A DNA stretch of 64,000 nt from Streptomyces sp. NBC_00820 (lineage in GTDB: Bacteria; Actinomycetota; Actinomycetes; Streptomycetales; Streptomycetaceae): contig NZ_CP108882.1 of the NCBI RefSeq assembly GCF_036347055.1, positions 7,180,001-7,244,000 on the forward strand, written 5' to 3'. Shown one piece after another: positions 42,686-50,717 of the stretch. The position numbers were made by a program, and so were the translations under genes. The notes beneath the pieces were generated by a model. The model saw only the letters and a program-made list of their open reading frames with translations. It made no database searches and was not told the origin of the DNA. Each line of letters opens with the position of its first letter. The stretch's first letter is position 1.

Positions 42686-43431
42686 AGCTCACCCTGCGCG
42701 TCTGGCGGCAGAAGCATGCCGACGCCGACGGCGCCATGTCCACGTACGAGGTGGACGGCATCTCGCCCGACATGTCCTTCCTGGAGATGCTGGACGTCCT
42801 CAACGAGCGTCTCATCCTCGCCGGCGAGGAGCCCGTCGCCTTCGACCACGACTGCCGCGAGGGCATCTGCGGCGCGTGCAGCCTGGTCATCAACGGCGAC
42901 GCGCACGGCCCCGAGCGCACCACCACCTGCCAGCTGCACATGCGGTCCTTCGAGGACGGCGACACGATCGACGTCGAACCGTGGCGGGCGGCCGCGTTCC
43001 CGGTGATCAAGGACCTGGTCGTCGACCGGTCCGCGTTCGACCGGATCATCCAGGCCGGCGGCTACGTCACCGCACCCACCGGCTCGGCGCCGGAGGCCCA
43101 CGCCACCGCGGTGCCGAAGGCGGACGCCGACTACGCCTTCGAGCACGCGGAGTGCATCGGGTGCGGCGCCTGTGTGGCCGCCTGCCCCAACGGCGCGGCG
43201 ATGCTCTTCACCTCCGCCAAGGTCAACCACCTGGGTGTGCTGCCCCAGGGCGCGCCCGAGCGGGAGACCCGGGTGCTGGACATGGTGGCCCAGATGGACA
43301 CGGAGGGATTCGGCGGATGCACGCTCACCGGTGAGTGCGCGACCGCCTGCCCGAAGGGGATTCCGCTGATGTCGATCACCAGCATGAACCGCGAGTGGCT
43401 GCGGGCGACCCGCAAGTCACGCAAGCGGTAG
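42682..43431 (+). CDS. sdhB: Succinate dehydrogenase/fumarate reductase iron-sulfur subunit
   Basis: The 249-residue Fe-S subunit has a 2Fe-2S domain with [10 protein letters not shown] and a further Cys in TTCQLH. The ferredoxin-type domain has [15 protein letters not shown] and later [17 protein letters not shown], providing ligands for the 4Fe-4S and 3Fe-4S centres. It carries electrons from FAD to the membrane subunit. The ATGA overlap with sdhA couples their translation, and a terminator-like hairpin follows at 43461. Confidence 0.95.
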
Positions 43432-43460
43432 AGACGTTCGCCGGCAGACAGGCGGACGGG

Positions 43461-43492
43461 CGGGGCCGGGGGCAGGTGCTCTCCCGGCCCCG
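43461..43492 (+). terminator. Terminator-like hairpin after sdhB
   Basis: CGGGGCCGGG (43461-43470) pairs perfectly with CCCGGCCCCG (43483-43492) across a 12-nt loop, then GTCTGGCTT. It lies between convergent sdhB and the conflict operon's last gene, so it may act both ways. Confidence 0.6.
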
Positions 43493-43554
43493 TCTGGCTT
43501 ACGGACGCCCGACGCGGGCCACAACCGCAGGGACCGCCGCGGGAGTTCCCCGGG

Positions 43555-46500
43555 TCATGACGTCTCCGGCTCCGGCGGCAGCGGTCGTACGACCAGGTCC
43601 GCCAGCTGGAGCAAGGCGCTCACGGTGGCCGCGCGAAGGTCTCCGAGCCGCCAGTGCGGGGACTGCAGAGCGCTGTCGAAGGGCACGTGCACGACCTGCT
43701 CGGACCGGAGGCGCAGCCGCAGCGCGAAGTCCTCGGCCGGCCCACGGGGGTAGGAGCCGTCGGTCCGCGTCGCCACGACCACCGCGTCGTCCGCCAGGCG
43801 GTGGCGTCCGGCCTCCCGCAGCAGGCCGAGGGTGCGCACCGCCGCGTCCCTGAACCAGTCGGTCGTGCCGCAGCACACGATCAGCCGGTCCGTGTGGTCC
43901 AGGACCACGTCCAGCGGCCGGTCGACACGGACCGGTGCCCAGTCGGTCAGGACGAAGCCGTAGTAGGGCGCCGTGTGGGAGAGCACGCGCGTGTACTCCT
44001 GCGCGTGTGCGGAGTTCGGCCCGAAGTGGCCCGCGGGGTGGGCCGTCACTTCGAGGCCCGAGGCGAGCCGCGTGGTGTGGGCGCGGACCTCCTCGTACGA
44101 CGGACCGAGCGGCAGGGCCGCCAGATCGCGCGGGACGGCCCGGTTGCGACCGGACGGCAGGAACGCGCCCAGCGCCCCTTCGGTGGCCGCTCCGTCCAGG
44201 GCCAGGACGGGCTCGTCCCGCACCGTGGCCAGCAGCGAGCCCAGCGCCATGGTGGTGGTCGCCCGGCCGCTGTAGTGCTCGGCGCCGATCAGGGTCAGCC
44301 GCCTGCTGTGCGTGAGCGGGGTACGAAGCCGGGCGAGGCGCTCCTGGGCGAGGGTCCGTGCCCCACCGAAGCGGGGCAGCGGGAGCCGCCGCCCCGCCGC
44401 CGGGGAATCCGCAGGCCGGGGCGGCGGAGTGAGCGGCACCGAAGGCGCCGTCCTGCCGCCGGCCGTCGGGACGGGTTGCGCGGAGCCGCCGTGCCGCATG
44501 CGGGCCTGGGCGATGTACCGGGCCAGCACGTCGGCGACCTCGCTCGCCGTCGGGCACCCGGCCGGGTCCTCGTCCAGGCAGCGCGCGACCAGACCGCGGA
44601 GCTGCTCCCAGCCGTCCCCCTGCCACAGATGCATGCCCTCCGGCAGGTTCGGGACCTCCACCCCCGCCTTGCTGCTGATGAGTTTGAGCATCACGCCCAG
44701 GGAACGCATGCTGCTCGCGACACTCGGCGCGGGACCGGAGCCCAGATAGTCGCCGTCCACGGCGTAGTCGGACAGGTCGGCGAGCGCGACGGTGCGACGC
44801 AGGACGAACACGTTGTCCATCCCGAAGTCCGCGGGTACCAGTCCGCCGGCGTGGCACAGGGCGAGCGCGTTCGCCAGATGCCAGGAGACCAGCAGGCCGC
44901 GCACCAGGTCGAAGGGGGCGGTGCCCCGCTGCAGGGCCCCGGCGAAGACCTCGGCGAGACGAGGCGGCTGGACGTCCGGCGCGTCCGCGTCCTGGATCGG
45001 GGTCATCGCGAGCCAGGGCGGGGAGTCGTCGAGTCCGGTGGCGAGCAGCGCGGGCGCGTACTGGCCCTGGAGCCGGGCCAGCGCCTCCGCCTCCACCGCG
45101 ATCAACTGGGCGTTGGCGGCAGGCAGATCGGGGCGCGGGATCCGCAGTACTGCCTCCGTGCCGTTCGGGTCGACGCCCCGGTAGACCACCGTGCGTCGGC
45201 CGCGGCGCCGGCCGCGCAGGCGGTAGGCGCCGAGCCGGGCGGGGTCCGTGTCGGTGAGCGGTTCCCAGCCGTCGGTCGTGGCCGCGGCGGGCCCGGACGC
45301 GGCGGTGGGCAGGGCGGGCGTCCGCGCGAACGACACCCCGAACCGGGTGAGCAGCCGTTTCTCGACGCTCGTGAACGGCTGGTGCGAGCCGGGAAGATGG
45401 GCGGAGCCGTCCGGATGGGCCAGCCAGGCGGGGAAGTCAGGGGAGTTGCCCGCGAGTTGCTCGAGATGACGGCCGATCCGGCGGCTCGTGCGCAGGAGTT
45501 CGTCCTGCGGGACCGCGTCGAGGAGCACGGCCTTGGCCCCCTCGGAGAAGTCGAACACCCGGTGCTTGGCGGGCAGCGGACCCGGCACCGGCGCCGGATG
45601 CGGTCGCACCAGCCCGCCCAGGAACACCTCGGCCAGGTGCGAGGTCGTGGCGGTCCAGGGCACGGCCGACTGCACCAGCCGCATCACCGGCACCGAGAGC
45701 GGGGAGACCGCCGCGAGGTGCGCGGCGAGCCGGTACGCCTCCGGACTCGCCGCGTCCCGGAAGTGCTGGGCGCTGGTCAGGTCCCGGGCGGCGGCCACGC
45801 TGCCGTACTGGTCGGGCAGGGACAGCAGGGGCAGTTCCGCGGTGGTGCCGGGGGAGGAGAGCAGACGGGCCCAGTCCCGCAGCGAGGCCGGGACCGGCTC
45901 CAGCACGGGAACCGGCACGCCCTCGAACGCGGAGAGCTCCGCCGGCAGCACCGGATCCCTTATCTCCCACGAGGAGTTGGCGCCCCCGATGCGGCGCGTG
46001 GTGACCTCCCACCGCTCCGCGGCGATGCCGGAGGCCTCCCACATGTCGGGCGGCAGTGTCTGCAGGACCGCGACGGGCCCGCGCTTCGCCCAGCCGGCCA
46101 GCAGCCCGTGCACGGCACCGGACCGCCAGGCGGCGCCCATGCCGTCACTGACGACGAGGATGAGCCCGCGGCCCGAAGGGTCGTTGACGGAACTCAGCGG
46201 CACGGGGCTGCTGTCGGGCCGGAACGGGCGTGCGCGCAGACCCGGTTCGCGCGCGGCGCGGGTGTCGAGGCCGAGGACGCGGGTCGTGGCGAAGGCGCCC
46301 AGGCGCTCCAGCAGGGAGCGCAGTTCGGCACTGAGCCGGTGCCACAGCAGCATCGACAGCCCGTCGTCGACGAGCAGGGTGAGGTTCAGCCAGCGCTCCC
46401 GCACCGGCCGCTCCACCACGTCGGGCAGATTCGTCTCCGCGACCTGGTCGGCCGTGCGCTCCTCGTCCGTCTCCAGGCGGTGCCGGCTGTCCACGCGCAG

Positions 46501-46917
46501 CCGCAGAGGCTTCAGGGCCCGGCCCAGTTCGAGCTCGTCGGCGAGGGCCTTGTCCTCGGGCACCCGCACCGGCATCGCCCGCCGGGCCTCCGGGGGAGAG
46601 GAGACGACACGCACCTCGGGGACCGGGGTCTGCCGGGCCGCCGCGTACAGGTCGGGAGCGGTGAGGTCGGGCAGGTCCGGATCGTCGTGCTCCGGCTCCT
46701 TGGGCCGCGGAGCGGCCCGGTCGGGCTCGGGGACGGACTCCGGTGCGCAGGGCCGCGGCGAGGGTGATTCCTGCCGCAACGGCGCACCGGCCCCCACGGG
46801 CAGCCGGCGGGCGAGCCACAACACGTCCAGGACCTGGTGGGCGTCCAGGTCGTGACCGCAGGCCGACAGGACCCGCAGCGCCTCGGCCAGCCGGTCACCG
46901 CCGCCCGCCATGGTCAC
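43555..46917 (-). CDS. SAV_2336-type multidomain protein: vWA-like region, pseudokinase, MinD-like domain
   Basis: The 1120-residue protein is the last gene of the four-gene conflict operon. The N-terminal part (about 1-130) resembles SAV_2336 N-terminal proteins. A vWA-like part follows (WLNLTLLVDDGLSMLLWHRL, RGLILVVSDGMGAAW), whose MIDAS DxSxS reads DDGLS. A helical region leads to a protein-kinase-like domain (about 590-830): the VAIK lysine is Arg (AVLRIPRP), HRDLKPxN reads PADFGMDN and DFG reads DLS. This pattern suggests a pseudokinase. The C-terminal about 230 residues look like a MinD/ParA ATPase with the P-loop changed to YSGRATTTMALG (no Walker lysine). It is probably the large regulatory/effector platform working with MoxR. 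GTG 46917 overlaps the MoxR stop; ATG two codons later is also possible. Confidence 0.8.
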   Translation of the reverse strand: MTMAGGGDRLAEALRVLSACGHDLDAHQVLDVLWLARRLPVGAGAPLRQESPSPRPCAPESVPEPDRAAPRPKEPEHDDPDLPDLTAPDLYAAARQTPVPEVRVVSSPPEARRAMPVRVPEDKALADELELGRALKPLRLRVDSRHRLETDEERTADQVAETNLPDVVERPVRERWLNLTLLVDDGLSMLLWHRLSAELRSLLERLGAFATTRVLGLDTRAAREPGLRARPFRPDSSPVPLSSVNDPSGRGLILVVSDGMGAAWRSGAVHGLLAGWAKRGPVAVLQTLPPDMWEASGIAAERWEVTTRRIGGANSSWEIRDPVLPAELSAFEGVPVPVLEPVPASLRDWARLLSSPGTTAELPLLSLPDQYGSVAAARDLTSAQHFRDAASPEAYRLAAHLAAVSPLSVPVMRLVQSAVPWTATTSHLAEVFLGGLVRPHPAPVPGPLPAKHRVFDFSEGAKAVLLDAVPQDELLRTSRRIGRHLEQLAGNSPDFPAWLAHPDGSAHLPGSHQPFTSVEKRLLTRFGVSFARTPALPTAASGPAAATTDGWEPLTDTDPARLGAYRLRGRRRGRRTVVYRGVDPNGTEAVLRIPRPDLPAANAQLIAVEAEALARLQGQYAPALLATGLDDSPPWLAMTPIQDADAPDVQPPRLAEVFAGALQRGTAPFDLVRGLLVSWHLANALALCHAGGLVPADFGMDNVFVLRRTVALADLSDYAVDGDYLGSGPAPSVASSMRSLGVMLKLISSKAGVEVPNLPEGMHLWQGDGWEQLRGLVARCLDEDPAGCPTASEVADVLARYIAQARMRHGGSAQPVPTAGGRTAPSVPLTPPPRPADSPAAGRRLPLPRFGGARTLAQERLARLRTPLTHSRRLTLIGAEHYSGRATTTMALGSLLATVRDEPVLALDGAATEGALGAFLPSGRNRAVPRDLAALPLGPSYEEVRAHTTRLASGLEVTAHPAGHFGPNSAHAQEYTRVLSHTAPYYGFVLTDWAPVRVDRPLDVVLDHTDRLIVCCGTTDWFRDAAVRTLGLLREAGRHRLADDAVVVATRTDGSYPRGPAEDFALRLRLRSEQVVHVPFDSALQSPHWRLGDLRAATVSALLQLADLVVRPLPPEPETS

Positions 46918-47864
46918 ATCGCCCCGGTCAGCTGGTGCAGAACGGCGTCCAGGAGACCGTCCGCGTCCAGGTCGACGCCTCCGGCGCGCAGGAACACGGC
47001 GTTGAGGAGCTGGTCGGTGGCCAGCTCGCCCAGGGCGCGCCGGCGCAGGAAGGCGTCGACCAGGTCGTCCGCCTCCCGCAGCGCCTCCTCACCCAGGTGT
47101 GCCGCGACGATGGTGCGCAGCCGGTCCTCGTCGGGCACCGGCAGTTCGAGCCGCAGACAGCGGCGCAGGAACGCGGGCGGGAAGTCCCGCTCGCCGTTGC
47201 TGGTGATCACCACGACGGGGAACTCCGTGCACTGCACCAGCCCCTGATGCACCCGGACGGTGCCCCGGTGGTCCAGCGTCTGCACCTCCACGTCGGCCAT
47301 GTCCGCGGGGAGCCGGACCAGCTCACCGATCTCGAAGTAGCCCTCCTCGAAGACGGTGAGCAGGTCGTTGGGCAGGTCCACGTCGCCCTTGTCCATCTCG
47401 TCGATCAGCAGACAGCGGGGGGCGGCGGAGGCCACCAGCGCGGTGCCGAGCGCCCCGAGCCGGATGAACGAGCCGATGGACGCCTGCTCCTCGCCGCGGT
47501 CCCGGTTGAGCGTGGTCTCCCGCAGCCGGCCGATCGCGTCGTACTTGTACAGCGCGTCCTGCACGGTGGAACGGCTGGTGACGGACCAGCGCAGCAGCTC
47601 GCCCAGGCGCAGCTCGTGCGCGATGGCCCGGGCCAGGGACGACTTGCCCGTGCCGGCGGGACCGGTCACCAGCAGCGGACGGCGCAGATGCAGCGCGGCG
47701 TTGACGACGTCCGCGTGCCGGGGATCGATCACGTACGGCTGTTCGGGGCGCAGCGCCGGTGCCGGGGTGAAGCGGCGCCAGGGCGGAGCCGGCGGGAGCG
47801 TGACGGCCCTGGGCACACCGTCACCTCGGAACAGTTGCCAGTCGGCCTCGGCGGCGGATGTCAT
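46914..47864 (-). CDS. MoxR-family AAA+ ATPase
   Basis: The 316-residue AAA+ ATPase of the MoxR group has Walker A LLVTGPAGTGKSSLARAIA, Walker B CLLIDEMDKGDVDLPNDLL, sensor-1 region VVVITSNGERDFPPAFLRRCLRLELPVPDEDRL with an arginine finger, and a helical lid (LVDAFLRRRALGELATDQLLNAV). MoxR ATPases remodel vWA-containing partners; here the vWA-like partner is the SAV_2336-type protein encoded just downstream. The ATG at 47864 has AGGAGA upstream and overlaps the stop of the trypsin-like gene (ATGA); its own TGA overlaps the next GTG (GTGA). Such tight coupling suggests a complex made in fixed proportions. Confidence 0.92.
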   Translation of the reverse strand: MTSAAEADWQLFRGDGVPRAVTLPPAPPWRRFTPAPALRPEQPYVIDPRHADVVNAALHLRRPLLVTGPAGTGKSSLARAIAHELRLGELLRWSVTSRSTVQDALYKYDAIGRLRETTLNRDRGEEQASIGSFIRLGALGTALVASAAPRCLLIDEMDKGDVDLPNDLLTVFEEGYFEIGELVRLPADMADVEVQTLDHRGTVRVHQGLVQCTEFPVVVITSNGERDFPPAFLRRCLRLELPVPDEDRLRTIVAAHLGEEALREADDLVDAFLRRRALGELATDQLLNAVFLRAGGVDLDADGLLDAVLHQLTGAM

Positions 47865-50005
47865 GCGCTCTCCTGAGGTTCTGTCAGGTGCAGTCGGGGC
47901 ACGTCGCGGTCGGCGTCGGCCCAGGCGAGAACGGGCCGGCCGGGGAACTCGGGCGGATTGGCCTTGGCGTTGGCGCGATAGGTGTGCACTCCGTCGGGCA
48001 GTTCCGGGGTGGCCACCCGCGCCATGTGCCGCAGGCTCGGCGAGGTGCCGTCCCGGCAGCGGTCCCACATCACCACAGGTATGCCCAGGGCGAGGCAGGT
48101 CTGCACGATGCCGTCCCGGGTGCCGGGCGGTACGTCCACGGAGACGCGTACGGTGTCGAGTTGGTTGACAAGCCGGGAGTACAGGGTGTCCCGGTCCATG
48201 GGTTCGGAGACGACGAACTCCTTGCCGGAGTCCAGCCGGTTCCATCTGCTGCGCCAGCGCGAGACGAACCGCCCGTTGCGGCGCAGGAGTTCCGGACAGT
48301 GCATCACCAGGGGGAACTCCACGCCGAGCACGCCGGGCAGTGATCCGTCCGGATCGCGCGCCGCCCACTCGTCGACCGGCAGGTTCAGACCGCCGCGGTC
48401 CACGAGCACCTCCACCAGAGGCGGACGTTCGTCCTCGGGCGAGGGGGTGAGCGAGTCGAGGACACGCAGTACCTCGCGGGCCGCCTCGGCGTCCGAGAAG
48501 GATTGGACGCTGTCCGTGGAAACCTGGCGGGGCCCGGCGCCCTCGTCGCACCAGATACGGATCCGGTGCCGGTTCCGGCCTGCCCTCGTCACCTGGACCA
48601 GCACGCGTACGCGCAGGGCACGGGCCAGCACCGAACGCCCCCACTCCTGCGCGTCGTAGCGCCGTTCCGCCAGCGCCGACCGCTCGATCCCGAGGCGGCG
48701 CGACACCCCGTCCGCCCACATGCGCAAGTACGCCCGTCCGGTGTCGGGGCACAGCGCGCTCAGGTACTCGATCACCCGGAGCAGCGCGGGCACCCGGCGC
48801 TCCCCGGCGCCCGCGTGACCGTCCCCCGGCAGCGCCTCCAGGCGGTCGATCAGCGCGTCCAGGGTGTCCGCGCCGGGCAGCGCCGCGAGGTGCGGCAGCG
48901 CCGCGCGCACCGCCTCGGGAAACCGGCCGAGGACGGCCGGGTCCATGGCACGCAGCTGGTCGTGCAGCTCGCCGTACTCCGCCGGGGAGAGCAGCCGGGG
49001 CACGCGGGAGAGGGCGCCCGCCGCCAGGATGTGCTCGGCCGCCCGCGGGTCGTCGCGGCGCAGAATGCCGGCCAGGGCGGCCAGCGCGCGCGGGTGCGCC
49101 AGGAGGAACGCCACGAACTCCTCCGGGGAGGGAGGTACGACGTCGCTGCCGTGCCCCACACCGCAGGCCCGGGCCAGCCGGCGGGCGCAGTCACCCCGGC
49201 TGCTCGGTGACGGGAACACGTCCTCGATCGCGTCCAGCAGGAGCCGGAACGCGGGCTCGCCGGTGTCGACCGGAGCGGGCCGTACGCCGTCCAGCACGCC
49301 GAGCGGGCGCAGTTCGGCCTCGACGGCCTGCCAGGGGATGGCCCAGCTGCGGCGGATGACGCGCTGCGGGTCGAACTCCACCGGGGCGCCGCTCGCCCGC
49401 TCCCGCGGCATGAAGTGCGCGACGACGAGTCCCACCACGGCCTCCTCCCGCGCACACCACAGCGGGCTGCCGCTGTAGCCGGGGCCGACCGCCATACCCG
49501 TCGGTGCGCCGTCCACGTAGCCGTGCGAGCCGTGGAGCGCGGTCACGCTGAGCCGGGCGAACGTGGCGGCACGGCCGCTGCCGTGCCAGGCGCCGACCTC
49601 CTGCCCGACCGTCATGTGGGCCTGGCGGGGAGCGGCGGGCAGGCCGAAGGCAGGTCCGTCCACGCGCAGGACGGCCAGGTCACCGTGCCACTCGCCGGCC
49701 CCGGGGGCCGGTGCCCCGCCGTTCTGCGCGCGCGGCGGAATCCAGTGCGCCACGCGTGCGACGCGGCCCTGCCTGCCCGCCCTTTCGGCGCGCATCTCGA
49801 CGGGCACCTCGACGACGCCCGGTGCCCTGGACTCGAACGGGGCCCGGCCCAGTGCCGCGTTGACGACGTGCGCGCAGGTCAGCACCGTGTCCGGGGCCAG
49901 CAGGAAGCCGGCTCCGGCGGCCTTGCCGTCGCCCGGCAGCCGTACCGACACGACATGGTGGGACGGGTCGTCGGCACCGTTCCCCACGGCTTTGAACCAC
50001 CCCAC
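47861..50005 (-). CDS. Trypsin-like serine protease with VMAP-C-type C-terminal region
   Basis: The 714-residue protein has, at its N-terminus, a trypsin-like fold without a signal peptide. The catalytic triad is visible: His in DTVLTCAHVVNAA, Asp in WHGDLAVLRVDG, Ser in VGPGYSGSPLW. A helical middle part of about 200 residues follows (death/effector-associated-like, PSPEEFVAFLLAHPRALAALAGIL). The C-terminal about 300 residues have the character of vWA-MoxR-associated proteins: RIWCDEGAGPRQV, PPLVEVLVDRGGLNLPVDEW, GVEFPLVMHCPEL, GIPVVMWDRC. By the known logic of such systems it would be an intracellular protease effector or switch gated by the MoxR/vWA pair. GTG 50005 lies three bases after the CU044_2847 stop. 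Confidence 0.85.
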   Translation of the reverse strand: MGWFKAVGNGADDPSHHVVSVRLPGDGKAAGAGFLLAPDTVLTCAHVVNAALGRAPFESRAPGVVEVPVEMRAERAGRQGRVARVAHWIPPRAQNGGAPAPGAGEWHGDLAVLRVDGPAFGLPAAPRQAHMTVGQEVGAWHGSGRAATFARLSVTALHGSHGYVDGAPTGMAVGPGYSGSPLWCAREEAVVGLVVAHFMPRERASGAPVEFDPQRVIRRSWAIPWQAVEAELRPLGVLDGVRPAPVDTGEPAFRLLLDAIEDVFPSPSSRGDCARRLARACGVGHGSDVVPPSPEEFVAFLLAHPRALAALAGILRRDDPRAAEHILAAGALSRVPRLLSPAEYGELHDQLRAMDPAVLGRFPEAVRAALPHLAALPGADTLDALIDRLEALPGDGHAGAGERRVPALLRVIEYLSALCPDTGRAYLRMWADGVSRRLGIERSALAERRYDAQEWGRSVLARALRVRVLVQVTRAGRNRHRIRIWCDEGAGPRQVSTDSVQSFSDAEAAREVLRVLDSLTPSPEDERPPLVEVLVDRGGLNLPVDEWAARDPDGSLPGVLGVEFPLVMHCPELLRRNGRFVSRWRSRWNRLDSGKEFVVSEPMDRDTLYSRLVNQLDTVRVSVDVPPGTRDGIVQTCLALGIPVVMWDRCRDGTSPSLRHMARVATPELPDGVHTYRANAKANPPEFPGRPVLAWADADRDVPRLHLTEPQESA

Positions 50006-50008
50006 GCG

Positions 50009-50479
50009 TCACCCCGTGGTGGTGGTCGGGCCGGCGCCCGCCGGGGGCTTCCAGCTGGCGGTGACCGTGAGGTGCGCCTGCCCCGCCGCGCCGACGATGC
50101 CGAACTTGAGGTCCTGTCCCACCTGAATGCCGAAGGTGACGGTCAGTTCCGTGGGCGGCCGCGGCACGGCGGTGGCGGCGTTGTGGACCTCCTGCAGCAA
50201 CGGGGCGACGGGCCGGAGCGCGCCGCGCAGGGCATCGCCCGTGAAGTTCGCCACCGCGGTGCCGAAGCTGCCCACGGGCACGGCCGTGCCCAGGCCCTCG
50301 GGCAGGTCGTCGTCCGGCGAGGCCGGCGGTGGCGGTGCCTGCGCCGGGCCCGCCGCGGACACGAGCACGAAGCGGACGGGAGTGCCGTCGTCGAGGTCTA
50401 CGTCGAGATCGAGGCCGAGATCGGGATCGAGGTCGGGGTCGGGAACGGGATCGGCGTCGGGATCGGGTGAGGTGGACAC
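50009..50479 (-). CDS. CU044_2847-type protein with Asp/Pro-repeat N-terminus
   Basis: The 156-residue first gene of the operon matches the small CU044_2847 family common in VMAP-type loci: strand LDDGTPVRFVLVSAAG, a middle helix (FGTAVANFTGDALRGALRPVAPLLQEVHNAA) and a C-terminal beta part PTELTVTFGIQVGQDLKFGIVGAAGQAHLTVTASWK. Its first 30 residues form an unusual acidic repeat (PDPDADPVPDPDLDPDLGLD...), encoded by near-repeats of GATC/GTCGG at 50395-50475. The family is thought to regulate or sense for the ternary machinery; the mechanism is unknown. GTG start at 50479, no clear ribosome site, possibly leaderless. A gap of only three bases to the protease gene indicates co-transcription. Confidence 0.82.
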   Translation of the reverse strand: MSTSPDPDADPVPDPDLDPDLGLDLDVDLDDGTPVRFVLVSAAGPAQAPPPPASPDDDLPEGLGTAVPVGSFGTAVANFTGDALRGALRPVAPLLQEVHNAATAVPRPPTELTVTFGIQVGQDLKFGIVGAAGQAHLTVTASWKPPAGAGPTTTTG

Positions 50480-50636
50480 GACCGCATTGTCCGTCAGGGG
50501 ACACGTGTCCGAGGCGGTGATTGCACAACTCGGTTACCGGATCGATGCACAGGGTGAGGGAAGGCGGGGCGCCCGGAATCGGACGGAACACGCGGCGCCT
50601 GAAGTGGGCGTGACGAGCGGCTCCCGGCGCGGGCAG

Positions 50637-50717
50637 GTCTCGGGCGGGCCCGGCGCGGACAGGTATCAGTCTCAGGCGGGCCCGGCGCGGGCAGGTCTCA
50701 GGCAAGCCCCGGCGCGG
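50637..50717. repeat. Direct repeats derived from the 3' end of the UvrA-like gene
   Basis: Copies at about 50637-50662, 50669-50694 and 50696-50717 share GTCTC(A/G)GGC...CCCGGCGCGG; the last covers the minus-strand stop codon (50698) and final codons. A partial fourth lies at 50617-50636. The array sits in the 218-bp space that must also hold the promoter of the conflict operon. Confidence 0.7.

Follow-up and report, generated by a model that had tools for sequence, protein, structure and literature searches.

A VMAP-type MoxR-vWA operon of Streptomyces with a conserved protease and motor, degenerate-looking tail enzymes and a 27-bp upstream element

We describe a four-gene operon, here called genes A to D, in a 64,000-nucleotide stretch of the Streptomyces sp. 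NBC_00820 chromosome (the window; G000:C1:7180001-7244000, the genome being one contig of 8.106 Mb). Judged by its sequence, the operon is intact and belongs, as an unexceptional member, to a large family of bacterial operons that are predicted to serve self-defence through a protease, an ATPase motor and an adaptor protein: the VMAP (vWA-MoxR-associated protein) MoxR-vWA ternary conflict systems, which were described in 2020 (Kaur et al., eLife, PMC7159879). What is new here is a 27-bp control-like element that lies ahead of the operon in a group of related strains. To the reading that this is a conflict system of the trypsin/Trypco1 type, in which the trypsin domain is the executor and the tail of the vWA protein a binding module, we would give about an even chance. 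The genes and their domains are as follows.

50009..50479, minus strand: gene A, Trypco1/CU044_2847 protein, 156 amino acids (profile search; GTG start)
50045-50401, minus strand: Trypco1 domain of gene A
47861..50005, minus strand: gene B, trypsin-like peptidase and VMAP fusion, 714 amino acids (profile search, alignment)
49427-49915, minus strand: trypsin domain of gene B, with H46, D109 and S178
48659-48988, minus strand: weak VMAP-M0 of gene B
47912-48571, minus strand: VMAP-C of gene B
46914..47864, minus strand: gene C, MoxR-type AAA+ ATPase, 316 amino acids (profile search; N-terminal motifs WQLFRG and PPWRRF)
43555..46917, minus strand: gene D, SAV_2336-type vWA protein, 1120 amino acids (profile search, fold comparison)
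45847..46395, minus strand: predicted vWA domain of gene D, residues ~175-357, with metal ion-dependent adhesion site (MIDAS) residues D184, S188 and D258
45334..45774, minus strand: helical extension C-terminal to the vWA domain, residues ~382-528; weak fold match to part of CED-4
44494..45246, minus strand: probable pseudokinase domain of gene D, residues ~558-808
43588..44310, minus strand: MinD/ParA-like domain of gene D, residues ~870-1110, with the Walker A Lys replaced by Arg

Protein families and conserved residues

A first-pass annotation, made from the letters alone, had proposed a complete VMAP-type MoxR-vWA system of four minus-strand genes with 3-bp or overlapping junctions. Both frames and junctions were found as described (A and B lie 3 bp apart, B and C share a 4-bp ATGA overlap, and C and D a 4-bp GTGA overlap), and the proteins, the kept residues and the gene order agree with such a system. 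Profile searches likewise agree with the families it had named, CU044_2847, trypsin/VMAP-C, AAA+ and SAV_2336, the bpMoxR model staying under its cut-off. Specifically, gene A matches Trypco1 (PF19493; 63.7 bits, cut-off 24.6) and CU044_2847 (48.1, cut-off 23); gene B matches Trypsin_2 (45.2 bits, cut-off 27.6), VMAP-C (130.6, cut-off 27) and, under the Pfam cut-off of 25.9, VMAP-M0 (21.8), a label that many of its close relatives carry as a precomputed one; gene C scores above cut-off with three general AAA models and 19.4 bits with bpMoxR (cut-off 27); and gene D reaches 382.9 bits with SAV_2336_NTERM (cut-off 200), its profile search giving no Pfam match. The named close relatives of the operon proteins are Streptomyces. 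As a side observation, the N-terminal Asp/Pro/Leu-rich stretch of gene A is built by 6-, 12- and 18-bp tandem repeats (50391-50467), and relatives of gene A are often shorter, at ~120-150 amino acids among the matches listed.

The trypsin/Trypco1 subtype of PMC7159879 shares with the operon VMAP-C, a MoxR protein with both N-terminal motifs, a vWA protein, the order VMAP-MoxR-vWA, a Trypco1 protein adjoining the trypsin VMAP, and a mostly inactive kinase together with an inactive MinD/ParA domain, and no difference was found in the protein set. Ternary systems linked to diversity-generating retroelements in Thiohalocapsa also have a VMAP with an N-terminal trypsin, MoxR and a vWA protein, but there the vWA protein bears a hypervariable C-type lectin domain (PMC10907252), where here it bears a pseudokinase and a ParA-like domain. 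Other VMAP sets adjoin clustered regularly interspaced short palindromic repeat (CRISPR) loci with CARF proteins (PMC10910872).

The annotation had called the protease motifs TCAHVV, GDLAVL and GYSGSP and the MoxR Walker motifs intact, which they are, and all 41 aligned operons, counting the window, have the protease His, Asp and Ser unchanged. The triad H46, D109, S178 is kept, moreover, in all 118 rows of a wider gene B alignment, comprising the window and the rows of at least 600 amino acids among the best 120 of 236 relatives. In gene C the Walker A Lys, the Walker B Asp-Glu, the sensor Asn and two Arg (234/235, the choice of Arg finger being our own assignment) are present in 41/41 operons, as are W9, F12, G14, W29, R30 and F32 of its N-terminal motifs; the features of a VMAP-type MoxR protein (WxhapG, PsWRxa, Walker motifs and Arg finger) are all found in it.

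With moderate confidence, gene D may be said to contain a vWA domain. Its MIDAS residues, including the two Asp required of a vWA protein, are kept in 113 of 113 rows (the window and rows of at least 1000 amino acids among the best 120 of 360 relatives). When the vWA part was modelled separately for fold comparison, the top Foldseek match was a vWA chain of the NorQ-NorD MoxR complex (E 0.0086); in the search with the whole protein, vWA chains are absent among the rows listed because kinases fill them, and sequence comparison of this part with solved structures gave nothing useful (best E 0.29). At the N-terminus of gene D, L24, D25, L30, D31, L33 and W34 are invariant in 50 rows, an LD...LDxLW stretch whose spacing is not exactly that of the [D/E]xxx[D/E]xxxa motif printed for the N-terminal helical extension of VMAP ternary systems.

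After the vWA part, comparison of the gene D model finds a kinase fold followed by a ParA fold. The kinase and ParA domains look degenerate in sequence with their folds kept. The position of the kinase Lys is Lys in none of the 113 rows, that of the HRD His is Pro or Leu in every one of them, and DFG reads DLS in the window, such that gene D lacks the VAIK Lys, HRD and DFG of active Ser/Thr/Tyr kinases; both catalytic Asp are retained in 61/113 rows, the window among them. The position of the ParA Walker Lys is Arg in 112 of 113, and the deviant Walker A with the GKT Lys of active ParA/MinD proteins is lacking. The part of gene D that the first-pass annotation had called kinase-like is probably a pseudokinase, with a kinase fold but catalytic residues lost, and neither the C-terminal ParA-like domain nor the degeneracy of the two tail domains was part of that description. 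In such proteins kinase domains are mostly disrupted and MinD/ParA domains inactive (PMC7159879), a statement to which we add the count in this subfamily.

Mean pairwise identity was compared across the nearer 31 of the 41 operons (leaving out L110, which has no gene A, L051-L058 and L061). It is highest for MoxR (0.84), followed by the helical extension (0.78), vWA (0.74), VMAP-C (0.70), Trypco1 (0.69) and the pseudokinase (0.63), and lower for trypsin (0.59), VMAP-M (0.59) and the ParA-like domain (0.58), the gaps among the last few values being small. The linkers stand at 0.31-0.45, with 0.31 for residues 531-556 and 0.38 for residues 803-860 of gene D, and parts of these two linkers are of low confidence in the structure model.

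Distribution and chromosomal site

The order A-B-C-D is kept on one strand in 39 of 40 other places with a MoxR relative, which is not chance and bears out the conserved neighbourhood expected within the operon; the fortieth reads B-C-D with A undetected, and the order VMAP, MoxR, vWA is found in the window and in 40/40. These places are 18 nearer gene B matches, whose regions were taken from the 17 best-ranked genomes and G096 rather than from genomes with weaker, partial or contig-end matches, and 24 named GTDB loci, minus L118, a fragment with D only, and L043, which is the same place as L108 and was dropped from both operon and upstream counts. VMAP-C is present in 124 of 150 genomes of the genus, a relative of gene B at E <= 1e-20 in 32 of the 150, and one of at least 48% identity over the whole protein in 10 of those 32, the operon's own genome included.

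In the window, sdhCAB lies directly beyond gene D. Among 18 other operons, counted besides two paralogues, none is near sdhB, the LLM gene or a close relative of the window uvrA, and among the 24 named loci L100 alone has flanks of the window type (sdhB nearby, with the operon in the gap between sdhB and a uvrA-like gene), while L142 has a uvrA-like gene on the flank that was seen. Six other operons share a different chromosomal site. In eight of eight relatives fetched the operon is absent at the sdhB/uvrA-like site and sdhCAB is there; the uvrA-like gene follows beyond sdhCAB in seven of these, 59 nt off in G005 and 1.6-3.0 kb off in six, and was not found within 18 kb around the site in G013. 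This comparison of flanks places the cassette in a variable gap between sdhB and the uvrA-like gene (window 43431-50698; L092-L099), which measures from 59 nt to 7.3 kb between genomes and is a possible insertion hot spot. An imperfect 32-bp tandem repeat (50623-50717) lies at the end of and past the uvrA-like gene, before the 27-bp element.

The patchy spread and shifting sites of the operon are as in defence cassettes, by analogy. An origin of the cassette from a plasmid or phage was considered and set aside, since no phage match to an operon protein was found and the four matching plasmid records are all below 60% identity, one of them spanning the whole protein at 46%.

With dnaA at 4.21 Mb, the operon lies ~0.88 Mb, or 11%, from the right chromosome end, whereas the preferred position given in PMC7159879 is 33%. 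The genome has two more VMAP loci, at 33% from the right end and 26% from the left. One (L059, ~5.41-5.42 Mb) encodes a trypsin-VMAP, a vWA protein without a further Pfam match, an FxsB-type radical SAM protein and an HExxH peptide hydroxylase; the other (L060, ~2.12-2.13 Mb) encodes a VMAP-M2 protein with a weak caspase match and a vWA-TerD protein, with a weak alpha/beta-hydrolase match beside the VMAP-M2 protein, the caspase and hydrolase matches both being under cut-off. One genome thus seems to carry three published VMAP subtypes of differing design.

The 27-bp upstream element

Two features precede gene A in the window.

50526..50552, minus strand: 27-bp conserved element; the window copy has 23/25 specified consensus positions
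50486..50490, minus strand: ACAAT core, promoter -10-like, 6 nt ahead of the gene A GTG, suggesting a leaderless-type layout

The consensus of the element, CAATGCATCGATCnnGTAACCGAGTTG, was read off the same upstream sequences that were scored, so the shuffles used as a control argue against chance and not for function. Of the distinct operons that have gene A, 40 in all, 16 match at least 20 of the 25 positions, and 200 shuffles per upstream stretch never gave more than 17 matches; L045 has the right half of the element only (score 16, no better than shuffles), and 23 other operons score 11-14. From these upstream counts L110 was left out, and L141, L143 and L145, whose upstream DNA is identical to that of L120, L104 and L102, were not taken as distinct. 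With L142, there are 17 distinct copies. Over 20 rows, three of them repeats, the information content per position amounts to 1.57 bits in the element, compared with 0.46 ahead of it and 0.58 within the spacer.

The gap from the element to an ACAAT/ATAAT core is 32-35 nt in 16/16 operons. ACAAT itself occurs in 29 of 40 operons within the 61-nt span before the Trypco1 domain, where shuffles lead one to expect 0.9; the 29 do not include the window ACAAT, which the N-terminal extension of gene A there places outside this span. The centre of the window element is 60 nt before the GTG and ~49 nt before the core. Taken together, element and core resemble an activator site at a leaderless promoter, as far as their sequence and spacing suggest.

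The exact core RTCGATNNNGTAACCGAGT occurs once each in five of 392 genomes of the genus, every time directly ahead of gene A: in the window, in three operons already seen under other names, and in one new copy (L142). Five genomes is a lower bound, since variant copies, such as that of G070 with ATAAC, escape this pattern. In the window genome, the one scanned with mismatches allowed, there is one exact match, none with one mismatch, two with two and 14 with three, and the core pattern written backward gives 0 matches; none of the 16 weaker matches has an operon gene within 1.5 kb, and we take them for coincidences in coding DNA.

The element is found with the operon at more than one chromosomal site. 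Among the 14 largest clusters of shared flanking genes, considered for a regulator gene linked to the element, 13 represent one site of six genomes (tsaB/tsaD-like genes, by eye), and the remaining one, with a LacI-like gene, is found at 7 of the 16 element loci, six being the shared tsaB/tsaD-like site. In a tree of MoxR and VMAP the element is seen in a single cluster only, of 19 rows, whose support (92/87) is short of firm and within which L042, L109 and L110 lack the element or are unscorable. The element is undiscussed in PMC7159879, by a word search of its main text (promoter, operator, leaderless and 'upstream of' giving 0), and the 12-mer GTAACCGAGTTG has no occurrence in the open-licence PMC literature.

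Several other candidates were dropped. A 12-bp palindrome just upstream of gene A, GGACACGTGTCC, was considered as a doubled WhiA-type GACAC site and is not kept in the other operons (by eye). Structure in the upstream RNA is too slight, at -1.1 kcal/mol for the consensus fold of 17 sequences and four pairs near the start, though lower than chance (50 column shuffles, -0.07, standard deviation 0.19). As a coding leader the element fails by eye, its frames stopping early or lacking a start in several copies, and as an attachment site it fails because the genome holds no second copy of the core within one mismatch. MtrA and BldN, suggested by a resemblance, were likewise set aside as readers of the element. 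There is an outside chance that the element is a private operator, read by a product of the operon itself, such as Trypco1 or the vWA protein with its winged-helix-like extension.

Possible mechanism and alternatives

Two proposals have been published for such systems. In one (PMC7159879), sensing falls to VMAP, whose protease sets the tail of the vWA protein free; in the other (PMC10907252), the vWA tail is the sensor and the N-terminal domain of VMAP the executor. With the tail enzymes degenerate, the protease and the motor are the only activities whose residues are fully kept, and for this reason we lean to the tail as sensor and the trypsin domain as executor. The first-pass annotation had likewise cast the trypsin as executor, of abortive infection in its view: for the executor role the conservation pattern leans that way, as does one of the two proposals, but it is not decisive, and a role in defence is a prediction.

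On this reading, VMAP and the vWA protein would be held in one complex with a MoxR ring. The pseudokinase/ParA tail, the VMAP middle region or both would bind either an invader's product or a host complex that has been disturbed, whereupon ATP-driven remodelling by MoxR, acting via the vWA site, would free the trypsin domain, and this could cleave proteins of the cell or of the invader, leading to growth stop or cell death. Trypco1 is taken as a dedicated partner of the protease, possibly an inhibitor, an activator or a substrate adaptor.

Several points weigh against it. The same conservation pattern is to be expected if the protease merely releases the tail. The vWA fold is matched moderately, no Foldseek match reaching E <= 0.001, VMAP-M0 stays under the Pfam cut-off in the window copy of gene B, and with the two kinase Asp kept in the window, residual nucleotide binding or an unusual kinase is conceivable. 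A VMAP-C count of 124 in 150 genomes is high for a defence system. Nor do the operon proteins match PADLOC convincingly: no profile of PADLOC-DB 2.0 matches over most of a protein, the matches at E <= 0.01 being short P-loop ones and marginal ones. No experimental test of any VMAP system was found in the open-licence PMC literature, among the matches listed.

The opposite direction of action is a serious though less probable contender. Here VMAP would sense and its protease cut the vWA protein, and the freed pseudokinase/ParA tail would act as a dominant-negative decoy, directed at cell division, partition or kinase signalling. It is in keeping with this that the tail domains resemble inactive host enzymes, as PMC7159879 stresses, that few parts evolve faster than the VMAP middle region, and that linkers 531-556 and 803-860 are so weakly conserved, and in part so poorly predicted, that they could be cut. 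However, the tail is itself fast-evolving and apparently fit for binding only, which suits a sensor too.

A developmental or stress switch of mycelial bacteria, built of the same parts and not concerned with defence, is unlikely. The very high frequency of VMAP-C in the genus and the operon's own conserved upstream element would suit it, but relatives of the operon are patchy (32/150) and absent at the site in the eight relatives fetched, unlike a core developmental gene.

That the operon is a decayed, inert copy is very improbable, as the tandem-repeat extension of gene A is its single unusual feature, while the four frames are open, the protease and motor residues intact and the relatives under clear constraint. 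Least probable of all is a maturation chaperone for the adjoining succinate dehydrogenase, comparable with the MoxR-vWA pairs that aid respiratory enzymes. NorQ-NorD and midasin are AAA+/vWA pairs that share the vWA fold with a MIDAS and an AAA+ partner, NorQ-NorD-type pairs serving metal insertion (PMC13036017) and midasin ribosome assembly, but they have no VMAP and no protease. The adjacency of sdhCAB to gene D is what speaks for such a chaperone; yet within the DNA compared sdhB is near L100 only, among 18 and 24 other loci, eight genomes have the sdh genes without the operon, and neither VMAP nor trypsin is known to belong to a chaperone of this kind. The idea is nearly refuted, because the neighbourhood of the operon changes.

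Few of the conflict systems predicted in mycelial bacteria are commoner than the VMAP systems, and the copy described here offers a clean test case, with an intact protease and motor and tail enzymes that are degenerate in every aligned relative, such that executor and binding module should be separable by a few mutants. The sharply defined, control-like element gives a handle on when the system switches on. Were it a private operator, the complex would sense the state that it is in, or that an invader has disrupted it, and would reset its own transcription wherever the cassette lands.

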